This document shows positions 11,377 to 26,464 of a DNA stretch of 57,418 bases, in pieces. Made by a program: the position numbers and the translations under genes. Position 1 is the stretch's first letter. Each line of letters begins with the position of its first letter. The DNA comes from Candidatus Edwardsbacteria bacterium. Its GTDB lineage: Bacteria; Edwardsbacteria; AC1; EtOH8. A model generated the notes under the pieces. The model was not told the origin of the DNA. It saw only the letters and a program-made list of their open reading frames with translations, and made no database searches. The stretch covers positions 1 through 57,418 of the forward strand of contig JAHJLF010000081.1 in assembly GCA_018821925.1 (NCBI GenBank), in the 5' to 3' direction.

Positions 11377-11405
11377 TTGACAAGAACCTTGATTTGATAT
11401 ATAAT
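11377..11405 (+). promoter_or_regulatory. perfect-consensus promoter of the tRNA-Gln/GIY-YIG unit
   Basis: TTGACA, exactly 17 bp, TATAAT: a full match to the sigma70 consensus, as expected for stable RNA genes. The first tRNA-like sequence begins 24 bp after the -10 box, so the interrupted tRNA, the GIY-YIG gene and tRNA-Gln(CUG) are probably one transcript, ending at the terminator at 11899. Confidence 0.75.
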
Positions 11406-11429
11406 TACATCTCTTGATTATTCATACAC

Positions 11430-11582
11430 TAGGGGATCGTCCAACGGTAGGACATTAAGGCTTGAGGACCATGGTATCGGGGTTCTCCGCCTGATGTTCG
11501 GCAGGAAAGCCCGGCGGCGGCGGACCCGCCGCACTAAATGGTTTTTATTATCACCGAGGCGGGGAATCCCCACCCTATGCCA
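11430..11582 (+). pseudogene. tRNA-Gln-like gene interrupted in the T-loop by a 78-bp insert
   Basis: The first 56 nt (11430-11485) match tRNA-Gln from acceptor through D-arm to GGGGTTC of the T-arm. The sequence resumes at GAATCCC after a 78-bp insert (11486-11563). The copy looks decayed. The anticodon stem has a mismatch and an 8-nt loop (CTTGAGGA), so the anticodon cannot be read with confidence. The 3' half has two bases too few for T-stem plus acceptor, followed by an extra base before CCA. The final ATGCCA doubles as the start of the GIY-YIG gene. A specialised tRNA-like RNA is the alternative to a pseudogene. Confidence 0.6.
11486..11563 (+). mobile_element. T-loop insertion element, copy 1 (78 bp)
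   Basis: Begins TCCGCCT and ends AGGCGGG, near-perfect 7-bp terminal inverted repeats. It lies precisely between TTC and GAAT of the tRNA T-loop. Internally it has a 7-bp hairpin (GCGGCGG, loop CGGAC, CCGCCGC). Copy 2 at 11978-12056 shares both ends and the hairpin core, while the arms between are unrelated. The flanking tRNA bases extend the inverted repeat into the T-stem, so an RNA copy would form one long T-arm. No known element class was recognised. Confidence 0.6.
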
Positions 11583-11819
11583 TATTACGTATATATAATA
11601 AAAAGCATTAGCAAGGGCATTCAGTATGTTGGCTCTACTTCTGATGTGCACAAGAGTGTGGCCGACCATAACGCCGGACGAAGTAGTTTTACCAAGGGAC
11701 ATCGCCCCTGGATGTTAATGCACCAAGAATCATTTACAACTAAGGCCGAAGCCTTGCAAAGAGAAAGATATTTAAAATCAGGCAAAGGCCGGGAAATACT
11801 CAAGAAAACAATTAAATAG
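11577..11819 (+). CDS. GIY-YIG nuclease-family protein, catalytic Arg absent
   Basis: An 80-residue single-domain GIY-YIG protein of the UPF0213-like group. It reads YYVYIIKS for the GIY strand and QYVGSTSD for YIG, then DHN (His31), TKGHRPW, and a Glu-containing KAEALQRERYLKSGKGRE helix. The catalytic Arg usually found about four residues after the YIG aspartate is Ser27 here, so cleavage activity is doubtful. The ATG at 11577 overlaps the 3' CCA of the interrupted tRNA. A longer reading from 11538 would cross the T-loop insert and is unlikely. The stop is 3 bp before tRNA-Gln(CUG). The product may be a remnant of a homing-type endonuclease linked to the tRNA inserts. Confidence 0.75.
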   Translation: MPYYVYIIKSISKGIQYVGSTSDVHKSVADHNAGRSSFTKGHRPWMLMHQESFTTKAEALQRERYLKSGKGREILKKTIK

Positions 11820-11822
11820 CAC

Positions 11823-11896
11823 TGGGGGATCGTCCAACGGCAGGACACATGGCTCTGGACCATGGTATCGGGGTTCGAATCCCTGTCCCCCAGCCA
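11823..11896 (+). tRNA. tRNA-Gln (anticodon CUG)
   Basis: A full cloverleaf with encoded CCA: acceptor TGGGGGA/TCCCCCA, D-stem GTCC/GGAC, anticodon stem CATGG/CCATG with loop CTCTGGA (anticodon at 11855-11857), and T-stem CGGGG/CCCTG with the standard loop TTCGAAT. This is the uninterrupted version of the copies on either side. A CUG anticodon reads CAG codons only, so a UUG-reading tRNA-Gln must exist elsewhere or be the interrupted copy. Confidence 0.95.
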
Positions 11897-11898
11897 TA

Positions 11899-11930
11899 AA
11901 AAAGACTGCGGCTAAAACCGCAGTCTTTTT
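11899..11930 (+). terminator. terminator after tRNA-Gln
   Basis: Stem AAAAAGACTGCGG / CCGCAGTCTTTTT with a 6-nt loop; the right arm ends in five T. It follows the CCA of tRNA-Gln by 2 nt. Confidence 0.85.
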
Positions 11931-11944
11931 GCTTTGCACTAAAA

Positions 11945-12076
11945 GAACCCCGATACCATTTTATAATGGTGGGGTTCTCCGCCTGTCGAATAATTAAAGA
12001 AGCTTAGCGGCGGCGGATCCACCGCATATTATCCCTAATAACATTACTTAGGCGGAGAATCCCTGTCCCCCAGCCA
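11945..12076 (+). repeat. orphan tRNA-Gln 3' half with inverted copy and T-loop insert
   Basis: Three parts in order. (1) Bases 11945-11959 are the exact reverse complement of tRNA-Gln 11862-11876; this 15-nt match stops exactly at the TTC insertion point. (2) Bases 11966-11977 are a direct copy of the same segment lacking ATC. (3) The 79-bp insert copy 2 is followed by 12057-12076, an exact copy of the last 20 nt of tRNA-Gln including CCA. There is no acceptor, D-arm or anticodon arm on the 5' side, so this is not a functional tRNA. Confidence 0.7.
11978..12056 (+). mobile_element. T-loop insertion element, copy 2 (79 bp)
   Basis: Starts TCCGCCT and ends AGGCGGA (perfect 7-bp terminal inverted repeat, 10 bp with flanking TTC/GAA). 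The core GCGGCGGCGGA is shared with copy 1; the remaining sequence is diverged and AT-rich. It sits at the same TTC/GAAT junction as copy 1. Confidence 0.6.
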
Positions 12077-12086
12077 TGACTTTTAC

Positions 12087-12123
12087 AAAGCAAGACATTT
12101 TAATAAGTTGCCTTGCTTTTTTT
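12087..12123 (+). terminator. intrinsic terminator downstream of the tRNA array
   Basis: Stem AAAGCAAG / CTTGCTTT with a 17-nt loop followed by a T-run. It lies 10 bp after the last CCA and may be the original terminator of the tRNA unit. Confidence 0.65.
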
Positions 12124-26388: not shown

Positions 26389-26464
26389 GGCGCTATCGTC
26401 TAGTGGCCTAGGACGGATGGTTCTCAGCCATCAAACCGGGGTTCGATTCCCCGTAGCGCTACCA
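26389..26464 (+). tRNA. tRNA-Glu (anticodon CUC)
   Basis: Cloverleaf with acceptor GGCGCTA/TAGCGCT (one G-T pair at the end), anticodon stem GATGG/CCATC and loop TTCTCAG (anticodon at 26423-26425), T-arm CGGGG TTCGATT CCCCG and encoded CCA. The T-loop is uninterrupted, unlike the tRNA-Gln copies at 11.4 and 12.0 kb. Confidence 0.95.

Follow-up and report, generated by a model that had tools for sequence, protein, structure and literature searches.

We have found that a tRNA-Gln(CTG) gene of a Candidatus Edwardsbacteria bacterium is interrupted, exactly between TTC and GAAT of its T-loop, by one insertion of 571 bp (positions 11486-12056), which contains a GIY-YIG nuclease gene, a complete replacement tRNA-Gln and a double-hairpin module at either end. 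The window, i.e. the whole stretch of 57,418 nt that has been analysed, covers positions 1 to 57,418 of the forward strand of contig JAHJLF010000081.1 (assembly GCA_018821925.1, a genome of 2.4 Mb, labelled G000). The insertion probably represents a homing-type mobile element of tRNA genes, whose nuclease would cut tRNA loops, with the subsequent repair duplicating the tRNA in such a way that its function survives.

Empty and occupied alleles of the tRNA-Gln locus

The features of the locus are listed in Table 1. The first-pass annotation had described two inserts of 78 bp and 79 bp with shared ends and a GC-rich core at the same TTC/GAAT junction, as well as a GIY-YIG gene and an intact tRNA-Gln between them; all of these, including the boundaries of the inserts, are confirmed here, the gene by its Pfam match and the tRNA by ARAGORN and Rfam. 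Its description of two small elements within tRNA-Gln copies holds for the two inserts and for their T-loop junction, but the flanking sequences are not whole tRNAs: they represent the halves of a single tRNA that has been split, with a decayed 5' fragment on the left and 12 nt of T-arm followed by the intact 20-nt 3' half on the right. When the outer flanks are joined (11485+12057) and aligned with the empty tRNA-Gln site of G002, 169 of 201 positions are identical, the terminator included, and the alignment is gapless at the joint; the joined flanks thus recreate the empty locus, so that the two inserts are the two ends of a single insertion.

Table 1. Features of the split tRNA-Gln locus and of the empty tRNA-Glu site in the window.
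Feature	Position	Strand	Evidence
Native promoter of the split tRNA-Gln	11377..11405	+	TTGACA 11377-11382, TATAAT 11400-11405, 17-bp spacer; sequence reading
Decayed 5' fragment of the original tRNA-Gln, ends at TTC of the T-loop	11430..11485	+	aligns with tRNA positions 3-54, 48/54
Left hairpin module (78 bp, TCCGCCT...AGGCGGG)	11486..11563	+	sequence; family alignment; covariation
Left module, hairpin B (TCCGCC..GGCGGA)	11486-11524	+	
Left module, hairpin C (CCCGCC..GGCGGG)	11525-11563	+	
GAATCCCC, remnant of a tRNA 3' half, 5' of the GIY-YIG start codon	11564..11571	+	identical sequence in L055
GIY-YIG nuclease gene, 80 aa	11577..11819	+	Pfam PF01541, 4.7e-15
Intact tRNA-Gln(CTG)	11823..11896	+	ARAGORN; Rfam RF00005, 57.6 bits
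Intrinsic terminator-like hairpin and T-run, 3' of the intact tRNA-Gln	11900..11931	+	sequence reading
Hairpin A (GAACCCCGATACCAT / ATGGTGGGGTTC): 5' strand of the T-arm as inverted and direct copy, ends at TTC	11945..11977	+	inverted match to tRNA positions 40-54, 15/15
Right hairpin module (79 bp, TCCGCCT...AGGCGGA)	11978..12056	+	sequence; family alignment; covariation
Right module, hairpin B	11978-12017	+	
Right module, hairpin C	12018-12056	+	
Displaced 3' half of the original tRNA-Gln (GAATCCCTGTCCCCCAGCCA)	12057..12076	+	20/20 identical to the intact copy
Native tRNA-Gln terminator (AAAGCAAG...CTTGCTTT)	12087..12123	+	orthologous to the terminator behind the intact tRNA in G002 (alignment)
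tRNA-Glu(CTC), empty site	26389..26464	+	G003 orthologue with two tandem 135-bp hairpin-module units

Empty and occupied orthologous sites occur at three loci. At the locus of the window, which is located next to an aminotransferase gene, the same-genus genomes G001 and G002 carry a single intact tRNA-Gln, preceded by TTGACA and TATAAT as in the window, and no GIY-YIG gene, while in a third genome of the genus, G003 (locus L055/L151), the site is occupied too, with a 5' fragment that is 54/54 identical. The tRNA-Gln(TTG) gene upstream of prs is occupied by hairpins and a GIY-YIG gene in G000, G002 and G005, is followed by hairpins and a displaced 3' half without the nuclease gene in G003, and is empty in G001, G004 and G007. 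The tRNA-Glu(CTC) site, empty in the window, is followed in G003 (L204) by two nearly identical tandem units of 135 bp, with matching flanks on both sides. At the tRNA-Gln alleles, the nuclease gene lies beside its presumed target and is absent from the empty alleles, an arrangement that characterises free-standing homing endonucleases. The duplicated DNA at the insertions is a part of the tRNA, 20 or 54 nt in length; a MITE or insertion sequence has been rejected, the palindromic ends notwithstanding, as no short target-site duplication is present at TTC|GAA.

The nuclease domain of the window (PF01541) is also matched by the protein of locus L002 (2.7e-17), and the nearest relatives of solved structure in a profile search are the small GIY-YIG proteins of UPF0213 (PDB 1zg2, 2.6e-15; PDB 1ywl, 8.9e-13), which are of similar size, and for which the search returned no function and the searched literature no link to tRNA. 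Among 21 relatives, Glu63 is invariant and Arg27 is present in at least 90%; the G003 nuclease (L055) keeps this arginine, while the window copy has Ser27 at this near-invariant position and, judging from its sequence, is probably inactive. Since the catalytic arginine has been lost and the 5' fragment has decayed, the element of the window is probably a dying copy.

Structure and spread of the hairpin modules

Each insert consists of two tandem hairpins, B and C, as is supported by compensatory changes: with B and C paired as two separate hairpins in 13 long modules, 98.1% of the pairs are standard and there are 9 double-changed cells (0/500 shuffles), while slid versions of the pairing reach at most 58%. 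Wobble pairs also occur in the stems. The proposal of the first-pass annotation that insert and flanks form one extended T-arm, which would be tolerated or spliced, has been abandoned: pairing of the outer ends yields no double change, and splicing is not needed because an intact tRNA is kept beside the broken copy. In the window and in 10 module loci, the modules have no Rfam match, and a group I intron in a tRNA gene, or another known RNA, has been rejected on the same search, which gave no intron match. At tRNA-Glu, hairpin B occurs in the reversed orientation, matching the reverse complement of hairpin C at 22 of 27 positions (0/2000 shuffles), which argues for movement as DNA.

The pattern TTCTCCGCC-N15-45-GGCGGA matches the 2.4-Mb genome at 12 places, each of them within a few hundred bp of tRNA genes; the reversed control matches once. 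Across the bacterial family, the double hairpin occupies the TTC|RA point of about a dozen tRNA isoacceptors, mostly without a GIY-YIG gene, and the usual layout is as follows: an intact tRNA, a short spacer, hairpin B (38-40 bp), hairpin C (15 or 38-39 bp) and a displaced 20-nt tRNA 3' half, which is of the same isotype as the adjoining intact tRNA and usually 20/20 identical to it. The spacer is often a hairpin derived from the T-arm (GAACCC..GGGTTC), so that hairpin A of the window has counterparts at many other tRNA loci. This layout has been found for Ser, Ala, Gln, Tyr, Gly, Glu, Val and Met isoacceptors, and Arg and Ile show variants of it; in the genome of the window, a displaced tail is located downstream of 8 of the 39 tRNA genes and upstream of none of the 39. 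Detection relied on patterns and tails, and decayed modules are therefore undercounted.

Inserts with such ends are present at TTC|GAA in other genomes as well, and the pair in the window is not one local duplication that has drifted; together with the empty and occupied sites, the dispersed modules bear out the earlier suggestion of a mobile element that targets tRNA T-arms, with a linked GIY-YIG gene. In a search of 290 relatives, the module sequence rises above background in this bacterial family alone. The enrichment concerns the longer module at TTC, unlike the short TCCGCC..GGCGGA palindromes, which were considered as a genome-wide REP family and rejected, since their 16 sites, of which 4 belong to a single tRNA-Asn locus, show no overall enrichment over the 12 of the control. 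We see a fair chance that the hairpin family deserves a class of its own.

Three further observations concern individual module loci. Behind tRNA-Gln(TTG) in G006 and G008 (L168:1175-1520 and L169:1060-1520, reverse strand of the loci), repeated tRNA 3' ends occur, with TCCGCC..GGCGGA inserts in the T-stem, not in the T-loop, i.e. at a different break point. A cobalamin riboswitch (L218:716-912, 119.7 bits) is located a short distance downstream of the hairpin module of tRNA-Ser(CGA), and in L209 (G005:C58) a masked run of N lies within one tRNA-Ser hairpin module.

Small GIY-YIG genes and tRNA genes across phyla

A scan that was blind to tRNA genes returned 54 GIY-YIG relatives from many phyla, 42 of them with enough flanking sequence. 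A tRNA gene is located at most 200 bp from 34 of these 42 genes, the nearest tRNA within 500 bp is on the same strand as the GIY-YIG gene in a ratio of 44:0, and the tRNA density is 1.10 per kb near the GIY-YIG genes versus 0.0097 farther out in the same loci; these statistics pool related loci, such as the tRNA-Pro group of the Flavobacteriaceae. A partial copy of the adjoining tRNA (score 34 or more) is present at 78% of the loci, compared with 2.9% for the tRNA of another isotype, and at most loci the gene adjoins an intact tRNA as well as such a partial copy; across phyla, it is situated in sense between the tRNA pieces. The genomes are mostly draft metagenome assemblies, in which tRNA duplicates may be wrongly assembled, but these layouts are found repeatedly in independent genomes, isolates included (Winogradskyella, Pedobacter).

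Breakpoints occur in the T and anticodon regions as well as in the D and variable ones; a strict palindrome is found at the edge of the breakpoint in 28% of cases versus 1.6% at random places; the strict test has been used, as a looser version had a high null rate. In six flavobacterial genomes, the palindrome GTCACGC..GCGTGAC is located at tRNA loci at 14 of its 15 sites, with 0 for the reversed control. The unity across phyla resides in the architecture and the nuclease, the module sequence itself being restricted to this bacterial family. In a tree of the proteins, which is poorly resolved because the protein is short, the genes without a tRNA (L005-L007, L090, L101) group together and most tRNA-linked ones are located elsewhere.

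At three loci (L066:3001-3320, L084:3001-3316 and L100:3001-3306), the GIY-YIG frame enters the intact tRNA, with its stop codon being a TAG or TGA in the tRNA 5' end; at L003 and L004, the frame terminates within the broken tRNA copy. Tandem arrays of a tRNA fragment and a GIY-YIG gene occur in the flavobacterial genome G295 (L257/L261, with a unit of 343 bp) and also at L061, L081 and L163; they resemble the segmental amplification reported for phage SegB.

Explanations of the element and its relation to known systems

In the homing-type reading that we favour, the GIY-YIG enzyme, through a putative cutting activity, would break tRNA genes at the T-loop, while relatives with other specificities are predicted to break them at the anticodon loop, the variable loop or the D loop. 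The break would then be repaired by homologous recombination from a sister or occupied copy, by which hairpin units would be inserted, either with the nuclease gene or on their own, and a part of the tRNA would be duplicated. Most of these tRNAs are essential and present as single copies, so that survivors would be expected only where an intact tRNA has been kept or rebuilt, leading to the recurrent pattern of an intact and a split tRNA. The hairpins would serve as mobile ends, the broken copy would be left uncuttable, the nuclease gene, co-oriented with the tRNA, could be expressed from the tRNA promoter, and the fold-back repeats of the T-arm next to the break resemble products of repair. 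Several points count against this reading: a GIY-YIG gene is absent from the vicinity of many modules, the module sequence does not extend beyond this bacterial family, the intact tRNA retains the presumed target, so that self-cutting must be avoided somehow, and the tRNA-Ser(TGA) modules are retained across species and genera with 3' halves that are 20/20 identical, a persistence that could reflect a retained function rather than mobility.

The same persistence, together with the covarying stems and their wobble pairs, is what would be expected if the modules were functional RNA parts of tRNA operons (for 3' processing, stability or as sponge RNA) maintained by selection, with the GIY-YIG gene as a passenger; covariation is, however, equally expected if hairpins of single-stranded DNA matter, the modules are patchily present among close relatives, their units are tandemly repeated and can be inverted, and they match no Rfam family, and we regard this explanation as unlikely. 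Slightly less unlikely, in our judgement, is that the modules are mobile at T-loops by means of another enzyme, and that GIY-YIG genes merely gather in the same tRNA hot spots: a GIY-YIG gene is missing next to most modules, and G001, in spite of its modules, lacks a close GIY-YIG gene of the tRNA-linked type. On the other hand, at all four tRNA-linked GIY-YIG loci of the genome of the window the tRNA concerned is also present as broken copies with hairpins, the gene lies in sense between tRNA pieces with palindromes at the break across phyla, and no other recombinase gene has been seen in the short inserts.

The use of the tRNA 3' half as an attachment site by a tyrosine recombinase would explain the intact tRNA and the displaced 3' half, and the T-loop boundary with its 20-nt direct repeat resembles attL/attR of tRNA-integrated islands; such tiny integrative elements are nevertheless very improbable, given that in many cases it is the 5' part that has been rebuilt (54-nt repeat), that breaks also occur in the anticodon, D and variable loops, that each isotype has its own tail, and that the inserts lack an integrase gene, the linked gene being a GIY-YIG gene. 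Local tandem duplication of the tRNA array followed by random decay, with the hairpins arising by chance, would fit the decayed left copy (48/54), but it is contradicted by the empty sites and the exact common junction, and the hairpin family in about a dozen isoacceptors, the covariation and the low null rates leave it practically no weight.

The first-pass annotation knew of no described element of this kind. In the open-access literature that was searched, which leaves subscription papers and preprints aside, we have likewise found no description of chromosomal elements that combine GIY-YIG genes, tRNAs and palindromes, and nothing that connects chromosomal genes for small GIY-YIG proteins with tRNA genes or with REP sequences; a clear functional relative does exist, however, in SegB of phages T4 and T6, a homing endonuclease of the GIY-YIG family that is free-standing and belongs to the tRNA cluster of the phage (PMC13096335). 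According to that report, the cleavage motif of SegB, RAWTSGAAC, is the reverse complement of the T-loop sequence GTTCSAWTY, and its nuclease activity is required for the recombination-dependent tandem amplification of tRNA-Tyr and segB (PMC13096335). The sequence GTTCGAATC of tRNA-Gln(CTG) matches this motif exactly, and the insertion point agrees with the motif as published there. The two systems share a GIY-YIG gene adjoining tRNA genes, the T-loop motif, tandem repeats of tRNA and nuclease, and many isotypes; they differ in that the present elements are located on bacterial chromosomes, encode a single-domain protein of 80 aa, have a split tRNA beside an intact copy, and carry at the break palindromic hairpin units, which spread in the absence of the nuclease gene as well; the available text describes none of these features for SegB (PMC13096335). 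By analogy, the element would work like a free-standing homing endonuclease element, with putative cleavage at the T-loop. A viral reservoir has been rejected: viral contigs gave no matches, and a tblastn search of phages gave only weak ones, none of them named SegB.

A new class of elements may be involved, a proposal that we make with some reserve and hold to be somewhat less probable than its contrary: GIY-YIG-driven, palindrome-bounded elements within essential tRNA genes that carry or rebuild an intact copy (“cleave and rescue”), accompanied by hairpin units that lack the nuclease and are spread in trans among the tRNA genes, with both occurring in many phyla. The enzyme and its tRNA loci in many phyla suggest a little-known way for selfish DNA to inhabit essential genes, in which mostly single-copy tRNA genes are repeatedly broken and the selfish DNA survives by restoring the intact copy. 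If this is true, small GIY-YIG proteins of many phyla gain a likely role as tRNA-gene nucleases, the work on tRNA amplification by phage SegB extends to bacterial chromosomes, and a further source is added of tRNA gene duplications, pseudo-tRNAs and downstream hairpins that annotation pipelines miss. The idea can be put to a direct test, since both the insertion site, i.e. the presumed cut site, and the alleles with and without the insert have been defined.

Other known systems share parts of this architecture. Genomic islands and phages that integrate into tRNA genes through tyrosine integrases also insert at the T-loop, rebuild the tRNA and leave a displaced 3' half; in the present elements, by contrast, the 5' part can be rebuilt instead, the inserts measure about 95-570 bp and there is no integrase, and a tRNA-integrated island has been rejected for the window, as the 571-bp insert holds only the GIY-YIG gene and the tRNA. 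At E. coli tyrT (rtT RNA), 178-bp repeats behind the tRNA gene each contain the last 19-20 nt of tRNA-Tyr, similar to the displaced 3' halves described here; these repeats are not known to contain a GIY-YIG gene or a T-loop double hairpin. REP/RAYT systems combine short, dispersed, gene-less palindromes with a single-domain nuclease that is encoded elsewhere in the genome, as is the case here, but their enzyme is an HUH/Y1 transposase and their palindromes are generally intergenic, whereas the present ones are located within tRNA copies; this assignment has been rejected, the linked gene being a GIY-YIG gene and no Y1/HUH transposase being present among the ORFs listed in the insert.

The genome of the window has two further small GIY-YIG genes, which belong to another clade and are not linked to tRNA genes (L005:1440-1850 and L007:1370-1830; G000:C37 and C57). 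Palindromic repeats (attgcgag..cgaagcaatc; attcctgcgaaggcaggaat) flank each of them, which suggests a wider partnership between GIY-YIG genes and palindromes.
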